Shown here piece by piece: positions 2,957 to 13,596 of a stretch of 64,000 nt of DNA. Source of the DNA: Citrobacter gillenii (GTDB taxonomy: Bacteria > Pseudomonadota > Gammaproteobacteria > Enterobacterales > Enterobacteriaceae). The stretch spans positions 310,001 through 374,000 of the forward strand of contig NZ_SUQN01000007.1 in NCBI RefSeq assembly GCF_013337685.1, read 5' to 3'. The position numbers and the translations under genes were made by a program. The first letter of the stretch is position 1, and each line of letters begins with the position of its first letter. The notes under the pieces were generated by a model. It worked only from the letters and a program-made list of their open reading frames with translations, was not told the origin of the DNA and did not search any database.

Positions 2957-3306
2957 CGTCTGTTCCTTTAGTTCTGAAATGCTTTCGCCGTAACGTCCTG
3001 TTGATTGCGTCGGTCAGATACGGGGCATAAGGCGTACACAGGCATACTGGTACCGGTTACAGTTTTTGTAAATCATCACGCGTGACATGGGTATTCCGAT
3101 ATCTCGTTATCAAATTACGATTCTTGTTTTCTGTGATCGGAGTAGCGTCCAAAAATAAACATCACTGTAACTTATGGATTTTGTGGGGATTTATATGAAA
3201 TCGCTCATGTTATAGCGAAACGGAAGTTAAAAAAGTGAGTCAGGGGGTGTGGAAACCCAAGGAAGTAGCTATAATGCGCCCCGCCTCCATGTAGCAATCG
3301 AGGCGC
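2957..3306. other. yicI-selC intergenic region, yicJ absent
   Basis: 350 bases with no supported gene. The yicI promoter must be here, reading left. A perfect 10-base palindrome TCACGCGTGA lies near 3077-3086 and could be an operator. The right end holds the selC promoter. No remnant of yicJ is recognisable. Confidence 0.5.
3270..3275 (+). promoter_or_regulatory. selC promoter -10 box
   Basis: A consensus TATAAT is followed by the GC-rich stretch GCGCCCCGCC, a discriminator of the kind found at stable-RNA promoters under stringent control. No good -35 hexamer is seen at the expected spacing. Transcription would begin about 25 bases before the mature tRNA. Confidence 0.6.
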
Positions 3307-3401
3307 GGAAGATCGTCATCTCCGGTGAGGTGGCTGGACTTCAAATCCAGTTGGGGCCGCCAGCGGTCCCGGGCAGGTTCGACTCCTGTGATCTTCCGCC
3401 A
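3307..3401 (+). tRNA. selC: tRNA-Sec (UCA anticodon)
   Basis: 95 bases from GGAAGATCGTC to the encoded CCA end, nearly identical to E. coli selC. The anticodon loop ACTTCAAAT carries TCA, the acceptor stem GGAAGATC pairs with GATCTTCC, and the long variable arm (TTGGGGCCGCCAGCGGTCCC) typical of tRNA-Sec is present. It inserts selenocysteine at UGA in formate dehydrogenases. The 3' end of selC is a classical integration site for pathogenicity islands (SPI-3 in Salmonella, LEE in some E. coli), and accessory DNA starts directly after it here. I did not find a second copy of the 3' end of the tRNA within the window. Confidence 0.98.
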
Positions 3402-3508
3402 AAATGCTTTTCTTATCCCAGCCATTTGTCATATATCCTCAGTACACGAATTCATTTATGATCCTCGTTCAAATGTTTAAATTCAATTATTGATAACGAG
3501 AATCATAT

Positions 3509-4075
3509 ATGAGTACTGCACTTACCATTATAGCCATTACTGCCACTGTGATTAGCCCATTAATAGCCATTCAAACTCAAAAATTCATTGAAAAATATTC
3601 ACAGATAAAATCATTAAAAATTGATATATTCAAACAACTCATGGCAACCAGATCTCCGAATGCTCGACTGTCTAACGAACATGTTCGTGCATTAAATATG
3701 ATCGACTTAGCATTTTATGGAAAAATAAGAAGAGGAAAGGCCAGAAGAAGCGCTTCTGAAAGTGATGTATTATCTTCCTGGAAGCTTTATTTTGCACATT
3801 TGAATACATCATACCCTGATAACGACAACGCTTTAGGAACCATATGGAACCAAATAAGCAACAATCTTTTCTTGGACTTATTGTCAGAGATCGCAAAAGA
3901 TATTGGCTATAATTTTGAGCGAGTGCAGTTACAAACAGCTATATATTCCCCTGTGGCTCATGGGGCAATAGAGAACGACCAATTAAAAATCAGGAAGGGT
4001 TTAGCTGCAATATTTTCAGGAGAAGATGCCTTAAAAATGGAGATCATAAATATCCCAGGAAGGCAGGATAATTAA
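3509..4075 (+). CDS. hypothetical protein with N-terminal membrane segment
   Basis: 188 residues. The first 20 or so residues (from MSTALTIIAITATVISPLIA) form one hydrophobic helix without a good signal-peptidase site, so the protein is probably membrane-anchored with a cytoplasmic body. The rest is mixed alpha-helical, rich in Asn, Ser and Lys, with an RRGKARR basic patch near residues 78-84. It vaguely recalls a small DUF6680-like family of phage and island proteins, but I cannot confirm this. Base composition and codon use (many ATA, AAA and AAT codons) are much more AT-rich than the neighbours, which points to horizontal transfer. It is the first gene after selC and stands alone, ending nine bases before the convergent RHH gene. 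Function unknown. Confidence 0.7.
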   Translation: MSTALTIIAITATVISPLIAIQTQKFIEKYSQIKSLKIDIFKQLMATRSPNARLSNEHVRALNMIDLAFYGKIRRGKARRSASESDVLSSWKLYFAHLNTSYPDNDNALGTIWNQISNNLFLDLLSEIAKDIGYNFERVQLQTAIYSPVAHGAIENDQLKIRKGLAAIFSGEDALKMEIINIPGRQDN

Positions 4076-4083
4076 TCGGCCCA

Positions 4084-4278
4084 CTATTTATCTTGAGGCT
4101 CAATCTGCAGCCTTACCAACTCCTTTCTCCCCAAGGTTTTGAGCCAATTCCCCAAGCTCATCCCCTCTGCCTTTGCAGCTGCCTCGAACTGCGCCTTTAA
4201 CTCAGGCGTGATACGAATCTGGAAGGTCGGTGCTTTTCCGGATTTGGACTGGTTTGGGTCGCGTTTAACCGCTGACAT
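4084..4278 (-). CDS. small ribbon-helix-helix DNA-binding protein, probable autorepressor
   Basis: 64 residues. After a flexible Lys/Ser-rich N-terminus the segment TFQIRITPELKAQFEAAAKA (residues 18-37), followed by EGMSLGNWLKTLGRKEL, has the beta strand plus two helices of a MetJ/Arc or HicB-C-terminal ribbon-helix-helix domain. Such proteins act as dimeric repressors, often as antitoxins. Directly upstream, between 4279 and 4323, are two copies of a GTACGTACC motif, one perfectly palindromic, which is what an autoregulating RHH dimer would bind. No toxin gene lies in the same operon; the nearest candidates are the divergent SymE-like gene and the downstream convergent gene. It could be a solitary antitoxin or a simple repressor. 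Confidence 0.72.
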   Translation of the reverse strand: MSAVKRDPNQSKSGKAPTFQIRITPELKAQFEAAAKAEGMSLGNWLKTLGRKELVRLQIEPQDK

Positions 4279-4323
4279 GTACGTACCTATAAGAGCAAAA
4301 TATCAACAACCAGGTACGTACCT
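4279..4323. promoter_or_regulatory. paired GTACGTACC operator for the RHH protein
   Basis: GTACGTACCT occurs at 4279-4288, touching the start codon of the RHH gene, and again within the perfect 12-base palindrome AGGTACGTACCT at 4312-4323. The two sites flank an AT-rich spacer that fits a leftward promoter. The arrangement fits negative autoregulation, and the left copy also covers the ribosome-binding site. Inferred from sequence only. Confidence 0.6.
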
Positions 4324-4413
4324 TTTCTTTGGCGACCGGATCTATAAATGCTCCCGCCCGGTATTCGCAGTACCTGACGAGAGCTAATCTCACCAACTAT
4401 CAAGGAGTTGATT

Positions 4414-4704
4414 ATGGCTGATTCGCATTCTACCCCAGACACTGACCAATCCGGAACCGAGCGTTCGTTAATTGTGGGAAATCGCCCGAATGTTTTCGAC
4501 AAATCCACACCCAAAATTATCCTTTCCGGCAAGTGGTTACACACGGCTGGGTTTGATACCGGACAACAGATTACCGTAAAAGTGATGAACAGTTGTATCG
4601 TCCTGATGGTCTACAGCGAACAAGAGCAACGGCTGCAGGATGAGTTGAAAGAGGTACAGCAGAAGCTGGCAAGAATTGAGAGTACGCTGGCGACTCTCCA
4701 GTGA
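4414..4704 (+). CDS. SymE-like toxin
   Basis: 96 residues from the ATG at 4414, preceded by AAGGAG at 4402-4407. The central block from VGNRP through KIILSGKWLHTAGFDTG to VKVMNSCIVL matches the core of the SymE family, an AbrB-fold protein that acts as an endoribonuclease-like toxin in a type I toxin-antitoxin system. The C-terminal 30 residues form a predicted coiled coil (EQRLQDELKEVQQKLARIES) that E. coli SymE lacks, which is unusual. In E. coli symE is repressed by LexA and by the antisense RNA SymR; no LexA box is visible here, and an antisense RNA cannot be judged by eye. It may therefore be controlled by the neighbouring RHH protein or not act as a toxin at all. Confidence 0.7.
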   Translation: MADSHSTPDTDQSGTERSLIVGNRPNVFDKSTPKIILSGKWLHTAGFDTGQQITVKVMNSCIVLMVYSEQEQRLQDELKEVQQKLARIESTLATLQ

Positions 4705-4713
4705 AGCACGGCT

Positions 4714-4740
4714 GAACCTGTAAGCCATACTTACAGGTTC
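4714..4740. terminator. hairpin after the SymE-like gene
   Basis: Perfect 11-base inverted repeat (GAACCTGTAAG and CTTACAGGTTC) around a five-base loop, starting ten bases after the stop codon. It has no T-run, so it is a stable 3' hairpin or a rho-assisted end rather than a classical intrinsic terminator. Confidence 0.55.
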
Positions 4741-4745
4741 ACCAG

Positions 4746-4778
4746 GTGCCGGATGGCGCTATCGCTTATCCGGCCTAC
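4746..4778. repeat. REP element
   Basis: GTGCCGGATGGCGC and GCTTATCCGGCCTAC arms form a typical REP unit between the SymE-like gene and the toxin-antitoxin pair. Confidence 0.85.
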
Positions 4779-4822
4779 TTTTCTGGCCCCCTCTTCATAG
4801 TGACCACCAGAAAGATATCGAC

Positions 4823-4846
4823 TATAATGAACGAATCGAACGATTC
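4823..4846 (+). promoter_or_regulatory. promoter and operator of the Phd/ParE toxin-antitoxin pair
   Basis: A consensus TATAAT at 4823-4828 is followed by the perfect inverted repeat GAATCGAACGATTC at 4833-4846, over the likely transcription start and about 20 bases before the antitoxin ATG. Such a palindrome fits binding of an antitoxin or toxin-antitoxin complex for autoregulation. Confidence 0.65.
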
Positions 4847-4864
4847 ATACGAAATGGTGACAAT

Positions 4865-5125
4865 ATGCATACTCTTACGGCAAATGAAGCCAAAACCCAG
4901 TTTGGCGATATGCTACTTAAAGCGCAGCGAGAGCCTGTGCAAATTAACCGTAACGGTAAACCTGTTGCAGTTGTCGTTTCCATTGAAGACTATGAACAAA
5001 TGGAAGCCATGAAGCTTCAGTTACTGAAGGCCAAAATTCAGCGTGCTCAGAACGATATTCATTCGGGCAATACTGTCGACGGCGATGCTTTTTTTGATGA
5101 GTTGATGGATCAACACAAAGGATAA
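4865..5125 (+). CDS. Phd/YefM-family antitoxin
   Basis: 86 residues. The N-terminal half (TANEAKTQFGDMLLKAQREP, then INRNGKPVAVVVSIEDYEQM) is the Phd/YefM DNA-binding fold. The C-terminal tail (residues about 55-86, acidic and helical) would wrap and neutralise the toxin. It is followed after three bases by a ParE/RelE-type toxin gene, so the pair forms a type II toxin-antitoxin operon. A palindrome immediately upstream is its likely operator. The pairing of a Phd-type antitoxin with a ParE-type toxin is common in enterobacteria. Confidence 0.88.
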   Translation: MHTLTANEAKTQFGDMLLKAQREPVQINRNGKPVAVVVSIEDYEQMEAMKLQLLKAKIQRAQNDIHSGNTVDGDAFFDELMDQHKG

Positions 5126-5128
5126 AAA

Positions 5129-5431
5129 GTGAGTTACAAACTTACTGGGGAAGCACAGCGCGATATTATTGAAATCCGTGATTACACATCAAGAAATTGG
5201 GGCGCTAAACAGTCCAGGGATTATCTTAGGAAATTACAGGTCGTTCTCTCCCAATTAGCTGAAATGCCAGGCATGGGGCAACATCGCATTGATGATTTTG
5301 GTGAAGATGTTTACAGCTTTCCTTATGTTAGCCATACGATTTACTATTGTGCACAAGACACAAATATTGTTGTATTGGCAGTCTTACACCAAAGCCGAGT
5401 ACCAACAAAACATCTGGGACAACGTTTGTAG
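5129..5431 (+). CDS. ParE/RelE-superfamily toxin
   Basis: 100 residues from a GTG start at 5129, three bases after the antitoxin stop. The pattern SYKLTGEAQRDIIEIRDYTS, then AEMPGMGQHR, SFPYVSHTIYYC and IVVLAVLHQSR is the ParE/RelE core. ParE toxins target DNA gyrase, while RelE proteins cut mRNA. The sequence is closer to ParE (GVTPGMGxxR-like and HxxxY-like motifs, no RelE catalytic set), so gyrase inhibition is the better guess, not a demonstration. The reading frame is intact and full-length for the family. The module probably stabilises this island. Confidence 0.87.
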   Translation: MSYKLTGEAQRDIIEIRDYTSRNWGAKQSRDYLRKLQVVLSQLAEMPGMGQHRIDDFGEDVYSFPYVSHTIYYCAQDTNIVVLAVLHQSRVPTKHLGQRL

Positions 5432-5445
5432 CTCACCACCTTATT

Positions 5446-5477
5446 TGCCGGATGGCGCTGACGCTTATCCGGTCTAC
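5446..5477. repeat. REP element
   Basis: TGCCGGATGGCGCTGACGC and TTATCCGGTCTAC arms form a REP unit between the convergent toxin and autotransporter genes. Confidence 0.82.
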
Positions 5478-5491
5478 GGCTTCTCTGCCAA

Positions 5492-5530
5492 TAAAAATAA
5501 AGCCGCCGATCGATTAATCAGCGGCTTTTC
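5492..5530 (-). terminator. intrinsic terminator of the autotransporter gene
   Basis: On the minus strand AAGCCGC and GCGGCTT pair around an AT-rich loop and are followed by TATTTTTATT, 12 bases downstream of the stop codon. Confidence 0.8.
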
Positions 5531-5541
5531 GGCTATCTCTA

Positions 5542-8325
5542 TCAGAAGTTATATTTCACACCCAGCATACCGCGGGTATCGCCGTAGCCTTTGTCGCCGA
5601 CCTGTTGAGCCACGTTGCTCCACACGTTGAGACGCGGAGTGATTTGGCCTTCGACGCCGACTTTCAGTTCGGCGATGTTTTTTGTGCCGCGCATGTCGTT
5701 GCTGACATCGTCCATTTTCACGCGGGCGGTCTGCGTATTGTGGATCCAGTTGGCTTCGACAAACGGTTGGAACTCGCGAGATTTACCGTCGTCGATGGCG
5801 TTGTGACCGTTGATAAAAGCTTTCACGCCCAGACGGGTCATCAGGTTGCCTGCAGTGTCATCCTTCACGCGGGTACCGTTCGCTTCGCGGTGGTCGTCGG
5901 CCTGCACGTCCATCCACACCACCTGCGCTTTCGGTTGCAGCCAGTAGCTGTTGCGCTCGCTTTCACCCAGTTTGACGCTATAACCGGCTTCTACCGAGGC
6001 GGTAATTCCGCTGGATTTATACTTTTCCGCAGCCTGCTCCTGACCCATCACCTTGTTATCAAACCAGTTGTACAGCACCCAGCTATCCACATAAGTACCG
6101 GTCTTGTCGGCGTCATTCGCGTACCAGGTACCGTACAGACCCACGCTGTAACCGGTAACCTGACCGCGTGATGCGTAACCGGTCAGACTGGACTGCGTGC
6201 GGTTCTGGCTGTTAGCGTAGCCTGCCATCGCGCCGATGTGCCAGCGATCGAGACCGTCGCTACTCCACTGTGCCAGGTCGCCGCCTAACTGCAATACATA
6301 GCTGTTGCTTTGAGTTTTCAACTGCCCGCTGCCATCTTTAAAGCGGGTATGGCCGCCGACGTTGCGCATCCACAGGCTGGTGACTTTTTTCTCGCCCGTC
6401 AGCATATCGGTGTACTGCGTTTCCCCCAGACGATCGTGCAGTCGGGTCATAAACAAGGTATTGGCGGCAAAGTTGTTAGCCAGATAGCTGCCCGCTTCCG
6501 GGCGGTACTGCTGTTCAGTTACCGGCGGCACAACAGGCTCTTCTGGCTCAGGGATCACCGGGTCCACGGGATCAATGGGGTCTGGATCAACCGGCTCAGG
6601 GTCAGTTGGGTCGACAGGATCGGGGTCAACCGGACCAGGTGGAGTGACCGGAATAAAACTGGTCAGATACCAGTTGTTGTCCTTCTGTACCACGTTGTAA
6701 TCATACGCACCGGCAACAATACGGCCCGCTTTTTCAAAGGTACCGTCGGAATTGCCCGCCACTTCAATGATTTCAATTCCTTCTACGGTTTGCGCCCCGG
6801 TTCCGCCGATGTTGTTCACCACCACGAACGTGTTACCCGCCGTATTGCCAAGTACCTTCAGCTTATCGGTTTCGGAGGCGTCATCATGAAGCACGGTGTT
6901 AAAAACCAGTTTGCCGCCGTTGCCGGTGAAATCCTCATTGATGGTCAGCGTCTGCCACGCTTCGTCGCCACCGTGGCCAAAGTTAACGACTGCCCCGCGG
7001 TTTAACGTCAGGTCGGTGAGCGTTGAGCTGTGGGTCATATTCCACGTCGCATCGCGCATTTGCAGCGAGATAACCCCCGTCCCTGCCGTGGCACTGGTGA
7101 TATATGACGCCCCATTCCACAACGAGTTATCGGTCATGTTGAGCTTAATCGTACTGTTTTGCTGCGCCAGCGTGCTGGTCGCCGCAGTGCCGCTGGCGGC
7201 GTGCAAATCACCGTCGATGAGGAAGCGCCCGCCAGCGGAGCCGTCTACGGTACCGCCCGTTTCAGTGCTGATAGCATAGCTTTCATTGCTGTGATCGCCC
7301 GCCATGGTAATGGCGGCACCGCCTGCCAGGTTTATCGCACCGCGTGAAATCGCAAACAGGCCGCGTGGCGCTTTGCTGTATGAAGTCGCTTTTCCAGCAC
7401 TGTTCACGCTAATGGTCGCGTTGTCGCCCAGATTCACGGTCGCGTTCGTGGAGTAGACCGCATGTGCACTGATACCGTTCACCGTAATCGTGGCGTTATT
7501 GCCCAGTTCCGTTTTGGACGATGAGGCGGCATAAATCCCCGTTGAGGAAGCACCCGACGTCTCGATGGTAGCGTCATTGCCAAGCAGGATCGAGGAACCA
7601 CTCCGCCCGGTGCGAAGACCTTCAGAGCCGTCGCCGGTCGTCACAATGTGTGCCCGGTCGCCAACGACAATCGTATTTTTGGCCTCCGTGGCGTCTTTCA
7701 TTGCGTTTGCAGTGATACCACGCCCCTGGTAACCGGTGGTTTGAATATACAGATCGTCACCGACATAGATATTTGCCGAACCTGTCCAGCCCTGGCTTAG
7801 CGAGTTATAACCGGCATTGATCCCATCACCATCCTGACCATCCACATAAATGGAGGTACGGTCGCCGGTGATAATAAAGACCGGGTTATCTGGCGTATTA
7901 GCTCCGTGTGTACGGATACCATCAACGTCTTTACCGTTGTTAGCGGCATTCTTTGACTGAGTACGAATCGTCAGGTCATCACCGAAAATAACCCCTGGGC
8001 TTCCCGTGTTGCCGTTCTGAATAACGGTAAGGGAGTGTTCAAAGGCTTCTGCGCCAGGTCCATTAAGCGTCACCCCGTGGCCATAAACGGGAATCGTGCC
8101 CGCATTCCATTGATAAACATAATTCGGCAACGCGCTGGTTTTCGCGAAATGAGCATTCGCCTGAGCAGGAATTAACGCCTGCAATTCCGGGGGCAAACTG
8201 CTCACCAGCCCGCTGGAGGGAAGACTGTCGACATCCACCCATGCCGCGTGGGATGAAAATACCATAGAAGCTAATGCGGCAGACACCGCTATGGCTAGAC
8301 GTGAGTAATACTTAGGATTGGGCAT
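5542..8325 (-). CDS. MisL-like autotransporter adhesin (type V secretion)
   Basis: 927 residues from the ATG at 8325, which has AGGAGG six bases upstream; the in-frame ATG at 8340 would start before that site and is unlikely. A Sec signal peptide ends at about residue 27 (SSHA). Residues about 30-540 are a beta-helix passenger with repeated rungs of the type G(N/D)(D/N)ATI. A Pro/Asp-rich linker with repeated PDPVDP lies at about 555-604. The C-terminal 300 residues form the AIDA/pertactin-type beta-barrel ending in KYNF, with the terminal Phe required for BAM insertion. The protein would be displayed on the outer surface. In Salmonella SPI-3, misL also lies at selC next to fidL and marT; MisL binds fibronectin and aids intestinal colonisation. 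The presence of both partners here supports a MisL-like role, but the passenger may bind another ligand. Confidence 0.82.
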   Translation of the reverse strand: MPNPKYYSRLAIAVSAALASMVFSSHAAWVDVDSLPSSGLVSSLPPELQALIPAQANAHFAKTSALPNYVYQWNAGTIPVYGHGVTLNGPGAEAFEHSLTVIQNGNTGSPGVIFGDDLTIRTQSKNAANNGKDVDGIRTHGANTPDNPVFIITGDRTSIYVDGQDGDGINAGYNSLSQGWTGSANIYVGDDLYIQTTGYQGRGITANAMKDATEAKNTIVVGDRAHIVTTGDGSEGLRTGRSGSSILLGNDATIETSGASSTGIYAASSSKTELGNNATITVNGISAHAVYSTNATVNLGDNATISVNSAGKATSYSKAPRGLFAISRGAINLAGGAAITMAGDHSNESYAISTETGGTVDGSAGGRFLIDGDLHAASGTAATSTLAQQNSTIKLNMTDNSLWNGASYITSATAGTGVISLQMRDATWNMTHSSTLTDLTLNRGAVVNFGHGGDEAWQTLTINEDFTGNGGKLVFNTVLHDDASETDKLKVLGNTAGNTFVVVNNIGGTGAQTVEGIEIIEVAGNSDGTFEKAGRIVAGAYDYNVVQKDNNWYLTSFIPVTPPGPVDPDPVDPTDPEPVDPDPIDPVDPVIPEPEEPVVPPVTEQQYRPEAGSYLANNFAANTLFMTRLHDRLGETQYTDMLTGEKKVTSLWMRNVGGHTRFKDGSGQLKTQSNSYVLQLGGDLAQWSSDGLDRWHIGAMAGYANSQNRTQSSLTGYASRGQVTGYSVGLYGTWYANDADKTGTYVDSWVLYNWFDNKVMGQEQAAEKYKSSGITASVEAGYSVKLGESERNSYWLQPKAQVVWMDVQADDHREANGTRVKDDTAGNLMTRLGVKAFINGHNAIDDGKSREFQPFVEANWIHNTQTARVKMDDVSNDMRGTKNIAELKVGVEGQITPRLNVWSNVAQQVGDKGYGDTRGMLGVKYNF

Positions 8326-8399
8326 AATTGCCTCCTGCATTTAGGCGTAGAAAGTCCACCACATCGTAATAATGTGGAAATAATAAAAATGAAAAAAAG

Positions 8400-9017
8400 T
8401 TATAAAATATTCGAGATTATTTTATGAATACTATGTCCCAGTTTTTCTTCAAGACGAAGTTTATAGACGTAAATTTTCTTAATATCGATATTATCTGTGA
8501 CGGTGATTTGCTGAATACTTTTCCCCGACATAAAACGCTTCAGCAATATCATTTCCGTGTAGTTTAATGATCGTCCACGCTTGCTGTTAGCCTGGTGACC
8601 TGTGAACAGTCGGTGAATCTTCTGATGCTGAACAATATCATCATCGTCAGAATAAATAATGCCTTGTATGTAACTGCTTTTCGACAACCAGTAATTGGCT
8701 AACGGTGTCAGATTCCGGTCAGAGAGCAGGACAATACGCATCCCGCTACGGGCTAAACGGTCAACCCACTGCGGATCGGCGAACAAGCGCAGATTCGGGA
8801 ACGAAAAGTCGACAAAAATAAAGCCCTGGGACAAATGATTTTGATTATTAAGCAGAAGTTTTTCAACGATCCCTGCTTTCAAAAAACGATTCCCCTCAGG
8901 CCAGATAGCAAAAGTAGCACGGTGACAATACTGTGCGCGTACCGCAGGCTGCGGAAATAAAGAGCAGGATAATTCACAACTTATGCAACGAACATTTGGT
9001 GGCGGTTTTCTCTTCAT
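8400..9017 (-). CDS. LuxR-type transcriptional regulator of the autotransporter cassette
   Basis: 205 residues from the ATG at 9017 (GGAG nine bases upstream; a TTG at 9026 is too close to it). The C-terminal region (residues about 145-205, RSLNYTEMILLKRFMSGKSI to KKIYVYKLRLEEKLGH) is a LuxR/FixJ helix-turn-helix. The N-terminal part lacks a phosphorylatable receiver pattern and resembles the degenerate pseudo-receiver of RcsA/CsgD/BglJ-type proteins. Cysteines cluster near the N-terminus (RCISCELSC), which could bind a metal or sense redox state; this is speculative. It is transcribed in the same direction as the autotransporter, 75 bases ahead of it, so it may be co-transcribed with it or control it. 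I do not recall an equivalent in Salmonella SPI-3. Confidence 0.78.
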   Translation of the reverse strand: MKRKPPPNVRCISCELSCSLFPQPAVRAQYCHRATFAIWPEGNRFLKAGIVEKLLLNNQNHLSQGFIFVDFSFPNLRLFADPQWVDRLARSGMRIVLLSDRNLTPLANYWLSKSSYIQGIIYSDDDDIVQHQKIHRLFTGHQANSKRGRSLNYTEMILLKRFMSGKSIQQITVTDNIDIKKIYVYKLRLEEKLGHSIHKIISNIL

Positions 9018-9589
9018 CAAAAACAACTCCTGTAATTTTTTCCTTCAATATTTCACTGGTAAATAAATGTGTCAATCGACACGCTACGCGCGCCCCGTTA
9101 GTCAATTAAATTCAGTCATTAAAAATGTTATAAAGTCTTATCAGCAAATTAATACGGATGGTAAATAACCTGATACCAATCAGTATATGCGTATCTTTTC
9201 TCAGACAAATAACCATAACATTAGGAATTTTGCACATAAATCACGGCACCAGGATAAATAATCACATAGCACTATTTGCTAAAAAACCGACACAGGAGAT
9301 AATTATCAGTAACATTAATCCGATAATTTAATCACTCTGGCGGCGTGGTGAATAAATATAAGGGTAATTCTGATAAATCTGTAATGAATTCTCATTACTT
9401 AACCTTAGTTCATTCTCACCTAAGATTTATCTATGCTATCCGTTTGTATTTTAATGATTTTATTTCGTCACCTAAGAACTTTATCACTGATGATGTGCAA
9501 AGACCGAGGCGTTTTTGCGATTTGTATGTAGAATTAAAGGGGGTGTCAACGGCACTCCGTGATACGTCTTTGTTACTGAGGGCCGGGCA
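9018..9589. other. long AT-rich divergent control region of the MisL/MarT-like cassette
   Basis: 572 bases between the leftward LuxR-type gene and the rightward ToxR-like gene, clearly more AT-rich than the genome average, as expected for H-NS-silenced island promoters. A 14-base inverted repeat (GTGTC, four bases, GACAC) lies at 9069-9082 and CTTAG/CTAAG half-sites at 9413-9424. Short frames here (9345-9707 plus, 9431-9676 minus) overlap the marT-like gene and show no family resemblance. Confidence 0.5.
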
Positions 9590-10363
9590 TTGTACCTTAT
9601 CAATCAGTTGGTCGAATTTAATCCTGATAACAGAAGTCTGGTTAACCAGCAGACCGGGCGGTCGATTCAACTGCAACTGCCAGCCTCACTCTGCTTTTTG
9701 TATTTAATTACGCACCCAAATGAAATTGTTTCTCAGAACACGCTGCTAAAAGTGGGTTGGGGGGAGCGCAATAATGTCACCACAACCAATACCTTTTATC
9801 AGGCAATCCTGACGCTGCGTAAAGCGCTGGAGGAAGTAGGGCTGCCTCGTGACACGGTAAAAACTATTTCTCGCCGAGGGCTAAGATTAACGGAAAATAC
9901 GCAGGTAGAAGTCATAACGCACACACAAAGTGATGTTTCCTTACCGCCAGTGATTGAAGAAAACACAACACCCGTAACAATAGTGCCCTCACCGAAACAA
10001 ACAACGCCGATCCCACGATGGGGGATTATTTTTACCCTCAGCGTGCTTATTGCTACCCTGGTTATCTGGCTGGTGTGGTATCAGAAACGCCCGGCGATGC
10101 CATTTAACGCCTTCGTCTCTATTTCCATGCGAATTCCCTCAAATCAAAACTGCAAAATTTATTATTCACCGAATGAACACAATCTGGACGGTTATTTCAA
10201 TTTGATGCAATCGCATCCCTCTCTCTGTGAAAAAAACCATTATGTGTTCCTTGCCGGTTACCGCAAAGCCGAGAGAGTGGTCGCCTTTGTCTGTGATAAA
10301 GACGCACGAACGGATGCTTCTGCGTTTTGTACCAGCCATTATTACTGGATGCGTGCGCAATGA
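9590..10363 (+). CDS. MarT-like ToxR-family membrane-bound transcription regulator
   Basis: 257 residues. Residues 1-105 form a winged helix of the OmpR/ToxR type (NQQTGRSIQLQLPASLCFLY, then NTFYQAILTLRKALEEVGL and TISRRGLRL). A single transmembrane helix spans about 144-164 and a periplasmic domain of about 90 residues with four cysteines follows. This layout is that of ToxR, CadC and Salmonella MarT, which bind DNA while anchored in the inner membrane. Upstream of codon 1 the frame closes at a TGA (9560-9562) without an ATG or GTG, so the start appears to be TTG at 9590, with TGAGG eight bases before it. The stop overlaps the fidL-like ATG (ATGA). In Salmonella MarT activates misL; the same link is likely here. 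Confidence 0.82.
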   Translation: MYLINQLVEFNPDNRSLVNQQTGRSIQLQLPASLCFLYLITHPNEIVSQNTLLKVGWGERNNVTTTNTFYQAILTLRKALEEVGLPRDTVKTISRRGLRLTENTQVEVITHTQSDVSLPPVIEENTTPVTIVPSPKQTTPIPRWGIIFTLSVLIATLVIWLVWYQKRPAMPFNAFVSISMRIPSNQNCKIYYSPNEHNLDGYFNLMQSHPSLCEKNHYVFLAGYRKAERVVAFVCDKDARTDASAFCTSHYYWMRAQ

Positions 10364-10824
10364 AAAAAACCTGCACGATTATTCTGGTCAGTATTGGGCT
10401 GGCGACGGTTCTCGGTTCAGGTGCCTGGCTATGGCATTCGCGATATGCCGAACAACCACTGAATTGCATCGGCAACGTAGAGTGGAATATTGGTGACAAA
10501 CGCTTTACCGGCACGGTGTCGTACCGGATGTACCAGCATGAAGGGCTGGCGACCATTAACGGCAGGCTGTATGGACATCACACCACGGACGTCAGCAGGA
10601 ACATTTATTTTAGCTACACCCAACAGCGCGATGCCCGCGTGCTGCAGACGATGCAGGTGGTCAAAACTTTCGCCGATACAGCGGATGAAGATGATATTAA
10701 CAGCACATTGCCAGGGTTTTATCGCCAGAGCGGGCGAGGCCTGAGCCTGGTTATGGAGGAGTATAAAGGCGCGTGGATTTTTGCGACGTCGAATGTTCCC
10801 TCACTGTATTGTCGCAAAAGATAA
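10360..10824 (+). CDS. FidL-like membrane protein
   Basis: 154 residues starting at the ATG that overlaps the stop of the marT-like gene, so the two are translationally coupled. One N-terminal transmembrane segment (TCTIILVSIGLATVLGSGAW, about residues 4-23) is followed by a periplasmic domain with conserved Cys near both ends (LNCIGNVEWN and SLYCRKR). Size, layout and position match FidL of SPI-3. By analogy with ToxR-ToxS pairs, it probably interacts with the periplasmic part of the MarT-like protein to stabilise it or modulate its signal. No enzyme motif is visible. Confidence 0.78.
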   Translation: MKKTCTIILVSIGLATVLGSGAWLWHSRYAEQPLNCIGNVEWNIGDKRFTGTVSYRMYQHEGLATINGRLYGHHTTDVSRNIYFSYTQQRDARVLQTMQVVKTFADTADEDDINSTLPGFYRQSGRGLSLVMEEYKGAWIFATSNVPSLYCRKR

Positions 10825-11151
10825 TATCGTAATTTCACTTAAATCCAGCATTCACATTTATCATCATTGACTTACGCGACATGGGTCACTGAATCCAGTA
10901 ATAAGCCATTGCTATTCTTCTCCCCGAATCAGGAAGCATCCTGAATACCTCGATATCCACTGCGTAAAAATCAAGCGAAATGGACGTGTTAGAGCGTCCA
11001 GAAGACTTTAACCGACGGATGGATATGCGGAGATAACGTGGGCAGGGGCGTTTATCTCTCTGGCGAGCCATGCCTGACAGTACAGGCGTGATCGCATTAA
11101 GGAAACGGTGTGTTTCCGATGTACTTATGGCGTACTTATGAGGGATACATA
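10825..11151. other. leader region of the C69 dipeptidase gene
   Basis: 327 bases without a supported gene. Near the 3' end there is a hairpin GCCTG/CAGGC, a second hairpin GGAAACGGTGTGTTTCC at 11101-11117, and a tandem copy of GTACTTATG at 11121-11129 and 11132-11140, just before the start codon. These may form regulator sites or mRNA structure; no known riboswitch is recognised. Confidence 0.45.
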
Positions 11152-12648
11152 ATGTTTAGTTTTAAAAAGTGCCTGATTGCACTTTCAGTAAACCTGGCGG
11201 TTGTTTCATCCGGTTTTGCGTGTACGACCCTGCTGGTCGGCAATGAAGCCTCGGCGGACGGCTCAATGTTGGTGGCCCGTAGCGCAGACAGCGACGCGCT
11301 GAAAGCACAGCATTTTTTGATTCATCCGGCGAAACAGAACCAGACCGGGGTATACAGCACCAAAGCACATAATGGTGCGAATGATTTTACCTGGCCGCTG
11401 CCGAAAAACTCTCTGCGTTACACTACAGTGCCTAACTGGAAAACCCAGCTGCACGGAGCCACCGGTTTTAACGAACTGGGCGTTGGCGTCAGCGGGACAG
11501 AATCTATTTTTGCTTCATCGAAGGCGCTGGCCGTTGACCCGTACGTTGAGGATAAAGGGATCACCGAAGACGATATCCCGGACATCTTACTGTCACAGAG
11601 CAAAACCGCACGTGACGCGGTGGCCCTGCTGGGGCATATCGTTGAAACCGTCGGCGCAGGTGAAGGTTTCGGCGTTGCCGTCGTGGATGATAAAGAAATC
11701 TGGTATCTGGAAACCGGTAGCGGTCACCAGTGGATGGCACAGCGGCTGCCAAATAATCAATATTTTGCCACCGGTAACCAGGGACGTTTACAGGATTACG
11801 ATCCACAAGACCCGAACATGATGGCGTCGAAAAACCTGGTTGAGTTCGCCAGCGAAAAAGGCCTGTACGATAAGGCCAAAGACGGCAAATTTAACTTCTC
11901 CACAGTCTATACCCGCGATGATGTGCGTGACCGTACCTATAACGACCCCCGCGTGTGGACCATCCAGAAAACGTTTAATCCTTCCGTCAATCAGGATATG
12001 GCCGCAGGCCGCGAGTTCCCGGTATTCCTGAAGCCGGAGAAGAAGATGACACTGGACGACGTGAAGTCAGTGCTGCGTAGCCACTATGAAGGCACCAGCC
12101 ATGATCCGTACACCAACGGTCTGAACGGCAAAGAGCCGTGGCGCCCCGTCAGTGTGTTCCGCACCTACGAGGCGCACGTGATGCAGGTCCGCCCGTGGCT
12201 GCCAAAAGAAATTGGTGAAACAACTTACATTGGCCTCGGTATGGCCGATCTTACCGCCTTTGTTCCTTACTACAGTGGACTGAAGGCGTATCCGGCCAAC
12301 TATACGATGGGGACGGATAAAGCTGACGATCAATCCATCTACTGGAAGTATCGTAAATTACAGACGCTGACTATGACCGATTATCCTAAGCTCGCGCCCA
12401 TCGTCAAAAAAGCCTACAAAGCGTGGGAAGACAAGGTTGCACAGGAGCAAAAAGAGGTTGAGGCCGAATATCTGAAGATGGCGAAAACCGATAAGCCTGC
12501 CGCAGATAAAATGCTGAATGACTTCAACCTGCGCATCATGGCCGACGCCGAGAAGCTGACGGAAGACCTGACGAATCAGCTGTTCACTATCCGCACTAAA
12601 GATATTCAGTCTGATATTTTCTTTGCTAACGCAGCCAAAAAAGACTGA
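11152..12648 (+). CDS. secreted C69-family dipeptidase (PipD/PepD-like)
   Basis: 498 residues from the ATG at 11152, preceded by GAGGGA; the upstream GTG at 11110 would add residues in front of the signal peptide and is unlikely. A signal sequence of about 23 residues is followed directly by CTTLLVGNEASADGSMLVAR. In this N-terminal nucleophile hydrolase family the Cys becomes the new N-terminus and the catalytic nucleophile, so Cys24 is the predicted active residue. The family includes Lactobacillus PepDA and Salmonella PipD, a SPI-5-encoded protein. It would cleave dipeptides in the periplasm or outside the cell. The long C-terminal helical segment (KAWEDKVAQEQKEVEAEYLK) is also usual. It lies downstream of the fidL-like gene with its own leader and could belong to the same island. 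Confidence 0.88.
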   Translation: MFSFKKCLIALSVNLAVVSSGFACTTLLVGNEASADGSMLVARSADSDALKAQHFLIHPAKQNQTGVYSTKAHNGANDFTWPLPKNSLRYTTVPNWKTQLHGATGFNELGVGVSGTESIFASSKALAVDPYVEDKGITEDDIPDILLSQSKTARDAVALLGHIVETVGAGEGFGVAVVDDKEIWYLETGSGHQWMAQRLPNNQYFATGNQGRLQDYDPQDPNMMASKNLVEFASEKGLYDKAKDGKFNFSTVYTRDDVRDRTYNDPRVWTIQKTFNPSVNQDMAAGREFPVFLKPEKKMTLDDVKSVLRSHYEGTSHDPYTNGLNGKEPWRPVSVFRTYEAHVMQVRPWLPKEIGETTYIGLGMADLTAFVPYYSGLKAYPANYTMGTDKADDQSIYWKYRKLQTLTMTDYPKLAPIVKKAYKAWEDKVAQEQKEVEAEYLKMAKTDKPAADKMLNDFNLRIMADAEKLTEDLTNQLFTIRTKDIQSDIFFANAAKKD

Positions 12649-12655
12649 GTCACCG

Positions 12656-12675
12656 CCAGGTAAATGGCCTGGTTT
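12656..12675 (+). terminator. weak hairpin after the C69 dipeptidase gene
   Basis: CCAGG and CCTGG pair around a seven-base loop and are followed by TTTGCT. The short stem and weak T-run make this a tentative terminator between the two convergent genes. Confidence 0.35.
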
Positions 12676-12693
12676 GCTGGTGCGGAGACGTTT

Positions 12694-13596
12694 TCAGCTC
12701 TGCGCCAGCGTTTCACACCGCGCCTTCACGGCGTCGTGCAGCAGGCGCACCGCCGTTGAAAGCTGTTTTCGGTGCGGGCAAATCATATTTAGCGGGACTT
12801 TTTCCCCCTGATAATCAGGCATCAGCAACTGCAAACGACCGTCACGTACATCTTCACTCACGTCCAGCCACGACTTATACGCAATCCCCTCACCGGCAAT
12901 CGCCAGACGACGGATCACTTCGGCGTCATCGCTCATAAACGTGCTGTTGACCTGCACACTGCTGACCTCACCGTTGCGCGTAAACGTCCAGCGGTCATGG
13001 AGTCGCCCGCGTAAGACGAAGGTCATGGCATTTAACGGCGCTAAATCATCTGGTTTTTGCGGCTCACCGTGCTGCGTAACCCACCCCGGAGAAGCCACCA
13101 GCACGCGTCGATTACCAGGAGCCACGGGCAGTGCGATGTAAGACGCATCCTCGGTATTACCATAACGAAACGCGACATCGACGGGATCTTTAAACACATC
13201 AGTCACCTGATCGGAGAAAAAGACCCGCAGGCGCAGGGCGGGGTGGCAACGACGAAATGACTGAAAAACAGGCAGCAGCAGGTTACGCCCGAGATCGGAC
13301 GGCACCGCAATTTGCAGCGTGCCGGAAATCTCATCCTCGGGTGTCTGAATTTTCTGCAGACCGGCATGCATCACGTCCAGCATCTGGCGGGCATAGGGCA
13401 ACCAGACCTCGCCTTCCGGTGTCAACCGCAGACTACGCGTGGAGCGCGCAAACAAGCGTATGGTCAGCGTGGACTCCAGGCGCTTGATGGCGGAACTGAC
13501 CTGGGCCGGCTGGACGCCGACTTCGCGCGCCGCATCACTAAAACTGTTCAGCGCCGCGGCGCGGACAAACAACGTGAGATCTTCAAGCCGGAACAT
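12694..13596 (-). CDS. LysR-family transcriptional regulator
   Basis: 300 residues from the ATG at 13596, with GGGAG five bases upstream. The N-terminal winged helix (RLEDLTLFVRAAALNSFSDA, then REVGVQPAQVSSAIKRLEST) and the C-terminal periplasmic-binding-like effector domain (residues about 90-295) are intact. It is divergent from the quinone-reductase-like gene at 13709 with a 112-base intergenic region, the classical arrangement in which a LysR protein controls the neighbour. The family often senses quinones or aldehydes in such settings; the effector here is unknown. Confidence 0.9.
   Translation of the reverse strand: MFRLEDLTLFVRAAALNSFSDAAREVGVQPAQVSSAIKRLESTLTIRLFARSTRSLRLTPEGEVWLPYARQMLDVMHAGLQKIQTPEDEISGTLQIAVPSDLGRNLLLPVFQSFRRCHPALRLRVFFSDQVTDVFKDPVDVAFRYGNTEDASYIALPVAPGNRRVLVASPGWVTQHGEPQKPDDLAPLNAMTFVLRGRLHDRWTFTRNGEVSSVQVNSTFMSDDAEVIRRLAIAGEGIAYKSWLDVSEDVRDGRLQLLMPDYQGEKVPLNMICPHRKQLSTAVRLLHDAVKARCETLAQS

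Follow-up and report, generated by a model that had tools for sequence, protein, structure and literature searches.

Introduction

MisL is a well-known colonisation factor of Salmonella, with MarT taken as its regulator. On Salmonella pathogenicity island 3 (SPI-3) the genes stand in the order rmbA-misL-fidL-marT; MarT and FidL are cotranscribed, MarT has been linked to H-NS-silenced DNA (PMC2827545), and it has been reported to activate misL (PMC9214523, PMC2827545; papers are cited by PMC number, from the parts available to us). Together with ToxR/ToxS, YqeI/YqeJ and GrvA/FidL, MarT/FidL is a VtrA/VtrC-type system: a protein made of a helix-turn-helix (HTH), a transmembrane (TM) segment and a periplasmic domain with conserved cysteines, and an overlapping small gene whose product joins a TM segment to a VtrC-like barrel. 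EcpR/MatA offers a further parallel, as a local regulator whose gene directly precedes an adhesin operon.

Here we describe a related locus beside selC in Citrobacter gillenii, within a stretch of 64,000 nucleotides (contig NZ_SUQN01000007.1, positions 310,001 to 374,000; hereafter the window, in whose numbering all unlabelled positions are given). L numbers denote stretches read from relatives or from the window's own genome, and G numbers denote genomes, G000 being the window's. The locus shares with SPI-3 an orthologous MisL and RmbA, their order, and conserved blocks upstream of rmbA. It differs in its ToxR-like/FidL-like gene pair, which appears to be a paralog of MarT/FidL and to be the partner of misL-rmbA outside Salmonella. 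We read it, with a probability of about 0.62, as an adhesin locus that is controlled in two layers by regulators of its own and whose membrane-bound pair predates Salmonella's MarT/FidL. The locus is ordinary in kind, an adhesin with ToxR-like regulators, and unusual in its history. A first-pass annotation of the same DNA had seen a MisL/MarT/FidL cassette at selC with two extra members; its coordinates were right, and its interpretation stands in part.

Results

Trees and gene order set the regulator pair apart from MarT/FidL

The ToxR-like gene (toxRw, 9590-10363, forward strand, TTG start) encodes an N-terminal winged helix (Trans_reg_C, PF00486, E 3.5e-8), a single hydrophobic span at about residues 144-164, and cysteines at 188, 213, 235 and 247, all four of which are also present in Salmonella MarT. 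Its end is overlapped, by ATGA, by the start of the FidL-like gene (fidLw, 10360-10824, forward strand). The FidL-like product had no Pfam match at E values up to 10; a helix is predicted at residues 3-28, followed by a VtrC-like, lipocalin-like barrel that the fold test confirmed. A winged helix, a single TM helix, a periplasmic domain whose cysteines are C-terminal and an overlapping small TM gene are the features of a VtrA/VtrC-type co-component pair, which we take this to be; such a pair would also be expected to form a heterodimer that binds bile acid or lipid. The candidate co-component table of PMC9214523, as far as available, lists no Citrobacter pair, and nothing linking co-components, FidL and Citrobacter was found in the open-licence literature.

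The window's pair and MarT/FidL are kin, since the ToxR-like protein matches Salmonella MarT (24-25% identity, tblastn E 2.7e-18) and a FidL-like profile built without Salmonella sequences matches Salmonella FidL (E 1.1e-11), as the first-pass annotation had expected. In the ToxR-like tree, however, the window type and MarT fall into different clades, with support of 98/95 when a long outlier and the window genome's own paralog were included (31 rows) and of 100/100 when both were left out (29 rows). An approximately unbiased (AU) test, run after the first ToxR-like tree had been inspected, rejected a clade holding the 15 cassette-type rows, the two Salmonella MarT rows and no others (p 0.00013). 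The FidL tree has little resolution (good support for 5 of its 26 inner branches) and misplaces the own paralog on a very long branch; it puts Salmonella FidL apart in an 8-row group (100/100). In S. Typhimurium, MarT/FidL lies downstream of misL and convergent with it, whereas the window's pair is upstream of rmbA and divergent from it. In Yokenella, misL is accompanied by a window-type pair, and the genome also has, at another site, a MarT/FidL ortholog (L114; identity 81% across 252 residues and 91% across residues 29-160). The latter is flanked by phosphatase-like and GGDEF genes, called from open reading frames with no family search, and no MisL or RmbA match occurs within the 19 kb read.

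Because the clades are separate, the AU test rejects the grouping given above, the pairs occupy opposite sides of misL and Yokenella has both, the evidence indicates that the window's pair is not MarT/FidL by descent but paralogous to it. Of the first-pass identification as marT and fidL, the MarT/FidL-like character and the position beside misL thus hold, and the descent does not. One could suppose instead that the pair is MarT/FidL itself, after fast divergence and a move across misL: the two pairs are homologous, both stand beside misL, and the co-component superfamily evolves fast (PMC9214523). The long branch between the two clades, which weakens the tree tests, also weighs against our conclusion. 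Such a move is nevertheless very unlikely given that Yokenella retains both pairs, that the clades separate at 100/100 with the AU result above, and that both Salmonella genomes keep window-type remains upstream of rmbA.

Other combinations of these parts were seen. L120 (7710-11073) has a MarT/FidL-type pair right behind another MisL-like autotransporter barrel (58%), with the FidL match in two frames, and in L123 (8392-10617) an RmbA-type gene directly precedes a MarT-type pair, so that these parts recur in yet another combination. The window's genome has a second ToxR-like/FidL-like pair on contig C23 (L119, 2851-10291), 29% identical to the first. It adjoins genes for type I secretion (outer membrane protein, ABC and HlyD), so secreted adhesins may also be served by pairs of this kind. 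Next to this second pair (L119, 12259-16242), genes for a small membrane protein and for metallo-beta-lactamase-like, E1-E2 and JAB proteins stand in a row; the last three match PADLOC models, making this a defence-like set.

Salmonella keeps remains of a window-type regulator gene

Upstream of rmbA, both Salmonella genomes carry pieces of a window-type ToxR-like gene; searched with the window protein, these pieces score 37.4 bits (S. Typhimurium) and 39.3 bits (L036). Fourteen orthologs served as queries, and the best of 400 shuffled controls reached 29.3 bits; three Enterobacter/Lelliottia queries scored inside the control range. The S. Typhimurium relict starts 561 bp from the second rmbA codon, and the window's equivalent 567 bp. 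A fidL relict in Salmonella is not claimed, the best match (19.2 bits) lying under the best of 400 controls (27.3 bits). In the RmbA tree, Salmonella groups with Yokenella and Citrobacter (81/91), within a set that includes pair-bearing Enterobacter and Lelliottia (99/98).

The relicts and this nesting suggest that Salmonella shed the older regulator pair and acquired a paralogous one, MarT/FidL, now on the far side of misL; we regard this regulator swap as well supported. In the reverse history, Salmonella would have kept the ancestral arrangement, and a new pair would have entered Citrobacter and Yokenella. This history could draw on the wide spread of ToxR-like relatives, which the mixed alignment A2 finds in 166 of 295 family genomes, and on the MarT-type pair beside another autotransporter in L120. 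It has only the slightest chance of being right, as it has to face the decayed window-type pieces in both Salmonella genomes and a Salmonella RmbA nested among pair-bearing lineages.

The adhesin is MisL and the upstream gene an RmbA ortholog

The autotransporter gene (5542-8325, reverse strand) encodes 927 residues from an ATG at 8325 that follows AGGAGG; a gap of 74 bp separates this start from the end of rmbA, which is on the same strand. Its product is MisL, as the first-pass annotation had proposed: it scores 1797 bits against a cut-off of 1297 in the MisL equivalog NF011841 (residues 6-932 on profile positions 1-955), a cut-off passed in 10 of 295 family genomes. Identity to Salmonella MisL is 83% over the whole length (L036) and 84% over residues 6-563 (S. 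Typhimurium, L035). MisL in Citrobacter is already known, a partial misL match in Citrobacter tructae being tabulated in PMC7912136; the open-licence literature on misL, Citrobacter and selC, as far as available, yielded no description of the locus.

The LuxR-type gene at 8400-9026 (reverse strand, start codon unsure) is presumably the one called rmbA, a name that the literature, in the parts available, lists only as that of an SPI-3 gene; no open-licence account of rmbA as a LuxR-type transcriptional regulator in Salmonella was found. It had been taken for an extra member absent from Salmonella. An ortholog, however, directly precedes misL in S. Typhimurium (76%; L035, identified by exact matches to 6 of 6 published primer stretches) and in the second Salmonella genome (78%, L036). 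Identity is 76-86% to the Salmonella, Yokenella and Citrobacter copies and 69% to that of Trabulsiella.

RmbA consists of an N-terminal CX2CX3CX12C motif, an EcpR-like middle and a LuxR-type HTH. Pfam gave no match for the product; the HTH emerged when a family profile was compared with EvgA, RcsB and GerE. The four cysteines are invariant in 29 of 29 rows. RmbA is homologous to E. coli MatA/EcpR (52 bits, 21% identity over 178 aligned positions, E 3e-13) and differs from it in several respects: it does not reach the NCBIfam EcpR equivalog cut-off (49 versus 300 bits), its Cys13, Cys16 and Cys20 are absent from the E. coli protein, and its gene precedes an autotransporter. Structural rows for the RmbA model span residues 35-207 and barely cover the first 34 with the four cysteines, so we propose neither a fold nor a metal site for that part. 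EcpR-type regulators of Klebsiella and others (L067-L072, L074, L076, L077; the RmbA-type gene near position 10001 of these stretches) precede ecp or other fimbrial operons and, unlike E. coli EcpR, keep an N-terminal four-cysteine motif; the usher-like proteins of the ecp-type loci L069 and L071 had no NCBIfam match, and that of L071 matches Pfam TcfC and CooC_C.

Conserved blocks lie between the divergent genes

The 620 bp upstream of rmbA have a GC content of 35% in the window and 32-39% across the 19 loci measured. We compared this region in 21 rmbA-misL loci, 14 with the pair and 7 without; as the loci are related, no probability is given for block conservation. A sigma-70-like promoter, TTGACA-17-AATATT (9047-9075, reverse strand), has 10 of 12 consensus bases, and this stretch shows 0-1 mismatch in 16 of the 21 loci, both Salmonella included, and 4-6 in five (Enterobacter group, Leclercia). 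A promoter and terminator scan of 5300-11200 gave no notable excess over shuffles (6 versus 7.8 and 10 versus 6.9). Farther upstream, TTTAGC-N5-GTGCT (9268-9283, reverse strand) is exact in 20 of 21 loci, with one mismatch in L062, and occurs once in the 64 kb (chance mean 0.03); the block TNATNAGAATTCATTACA (9380-9397, reverse strand) has 0-2 mismatches in all 21. Because RmbA is common to all the loci, these shared blocks fit an RmbA site, for which TTTAGC-N5-GTGCT is the candidate.

The block CTTAGGT-N9-CTAA (9405-9424, reverse strand) follows the pair instead. It is exact in 13 of 14 pair-bearing loci, L049 having one mismatch in the second half; among the loci lacking an intact pair, L062 has one mismatch and the other six 3-5, against a shuffled median of 4. 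CTTAGGT alone is found on this strand in 14 of 14 loci with an intact ToxR-like gene versus 0 of 7 without; L057 has one copy on the other strand and the window a second at -453. This pair-linked block could be bound by the ToxR-like protein or belong to toxRw's own promoter. Nine RmbA-paralog loci were tested as well, several of them with a window-type pair, and none has the conserved blocks upstream. ToxR boxes of the form TNAAA-N5-TNAAA are absent from the window's region; one at -444 is common to three Citrobacter loci and others are scattered.

For Salmonella, the published MarT site is described in PMC11358694 and PMC2827545; in the former, MarT boxes reach to about 360 nt before misL, and a lack of significant expression is noted for several conditions. 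A distance of 360 nt from misL ends within rmbA in S. Typhimurium, so the conserved promoter upstream of rmbA seems to lie outside the region considered earlier. That this promoter accounts for low misL expression is a guess.

We propose the following mechanism, with named sites. misL and rmbA would form one unit transcribed leftwards from the divergent region (about 560 bp, 35% GC), from which toxRw and fidLw would be read the opposite way. The FidL-like barrel may sense a small periplasmic molecule, probably lipid or bile-like, and hold or activate its ToxR-like partner, whose winged helix would bind the divergent region (the best candidate being CTTAGGT-N9-CTAA) and turn on rmbA-misL, probably against H-NS. 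RmbA, an EcpR-type protein whose four-cysteine motif could provide a metal or redox input, would reinforce its own operon.

Close relatives of the pair stand beside misL

The named genome scan ran through RmbA and found 33 loci, none from Salmonella; pairs lacking RmbA are invisible to it. misL follows rmbA in 18 of the 33 (in L057 its first part only), and 13 of these 18 have an intact pair: nine Citrobacter, Yokenella, two Enterobacter and Lelliottia, or 14 loci with the window. The lineage outside Salmonella that the first-pass annotation had suspected thus exists. Of the remaining rmbA-misL loci, L062 has a decayed pair, and no pair was found in three Trabulsiella loci and a Leclercia metagenome-assembled genome. 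All 14 close orthologs of the pair (at least 53% identity, window included) stand beside misL, a count biased by the discovery of 13 of them through RmbA. With the ToxR-like alignment, the four best of 295 family genomes (at least 440 bits; G252, G168, G000, G152) are those with the gene beside misL. Distant relatives of the pair (34-38% in L116, L117, L118 and L121, 45% in L066) have no MisL match within the 18-20 kb read. The first-pass annotation had treated occurrence of the same genes away from any autotransporter as evidence against its case; such occurrence applies to MarT/FidL in Yokenella and to these distant relatives, not to the close orthologs. The L066 locus (4342-10097), from Trabulsiella odontotermitis, has RmbA and a window-type pair near selC beside ABC/HlyD type I secretion genes.

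This distribution bears on another account, in which the pair is a neighbour with other targets and RmbA, H-NS and global regulators alone run rmbA-misL. RmbA and the pair do occur without MisL in L116-L118, L121 and L066, and the Trabulsiella and Leclercia loci have rmbA-misL with no pair found. We nevertheless think it rather unlikely, in view of the 14 of 14 close orthologs beside misL, biased as that count is, and of the reported activation of misL by the related MarT (PMC9214523, PMC2827545).

Losses have also occurred. G023 (also L078), another strain of the same species, matches the window at 97.7-98.9% in blocks 3445-5510, 10290-10406 and 10543-12656; this strain has lost misL, rmbA and most of the ToxR-like gene, together with an internal part of the FidL-like gene. 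RmbA matches occur in 13 of 17 Citrobacter genomes, one copy with a stop, and are missing from 4. These losses would suit a locus that is silent baggage at the selC insertion hot spot and on its way out. The RmbA matches in 13 of 17 genus genomes and the conservation of non-coding blocks across genera argue otherwise, and we hold this to be distinctly unlikely.

Edges of the insertion and neighbouring genes

The left landmark is the selC tRNA-Sec gene (3307-3401, forward strand; ARAGORN, Rfam RF01852, 83 bits), the only RNA family found in 3000-13000. The cassette-less selC loci L079 and L080 lose homology to the window near 3403-3407 and regain it, by blastn, at 10870 and 10862, respectively, which sets the right edge at 10862-10870. 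Between selC and misL (3509-5431) lie DUF6680, SymE-like and Phd/ParE genes, cargo partly common to other Citrobacter loci and varying in content and intactness. As for an integration scar at the right edge, a search of the first 20 kb found no exact copy of the selC 3' end, taken as 12-22 nt with two bases of flank; the best approximate repeat, 25 nt with 7 mismatches, lies inside misL. selC is inside the fetched stretch in 5 of 9 named Citrobacter loci and was not seen in the fetched Yokenella, Enterobacter and Lelliottia loci or in L036; a position 'at selC' is therefore shown only for Citrobacter and S. Typhimurium.

The C69 dipeptidase gene (11110-12648, forward strand, E 3.2e-125), once counted as a cassette member, is followed on its right by a LysR gene and others. 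It is present in 16 of 17 Citrobacter genomes and lies on the same side of selC where the cassette is absent, 1.7 kb away in L080 with a full rhuM in between and 12.8 kb away in L079 with other DNA in between. It is therefore flanking chromosome, and the cassette should end near 10862 rather than at 12648.

As the first-pass annotation stated and in contrast to SPI-3, the cassette has no mgtCB, rhuM or cigR. The window's whole genome gave no match to the MgtC family (the same search was positive in 8 of 14 control genomes) or to rhuM, in a search without its own positive control, although the same protein matches L080 by tblastn. In the Citrobacter relatives L079, L080, L047 and L049, rhuM is present, whole or as short fragments, at selC or next to misL. 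A cigR homolog with one internal stop, 68% identical to Salmonella's, lies far from the cassette (G000:C23:80904-81428). E. coli genomes searched with 5000-12700 gave no match.

Discussion

Tentatively, the decay of the older pair in Salmonella may have left the conserved rmbA promoter without a membrane sensor, with MarT/FidL, which Yokenella has at a site lacking misL, taking over from the other side. The relevant promoter of misL would then lie upstream of rmbA rather than in the 360 nt or so before misL to which MarT boxes have been assigned. Co-component pairs would then be exchangeable sensor modules for adhesins, and the four-cysteine EcpR-type protein the fixed local switch. If so, low misL expression in culture could follow from a promoter lying upstream of rmbA.

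If the ancestral control of MisL was another co-component pair together with an EcpR-type protein, the wiring in Salmonella would be a replacement made late, and the intended way of switching on MisL would best be studied in Citrobacter or Yokenella. The locus would also illustrate clearly how paralogous regulators, possibly sensors of lipid, can be exchanged for one another, and its non-coding footprints point to candidate sites.
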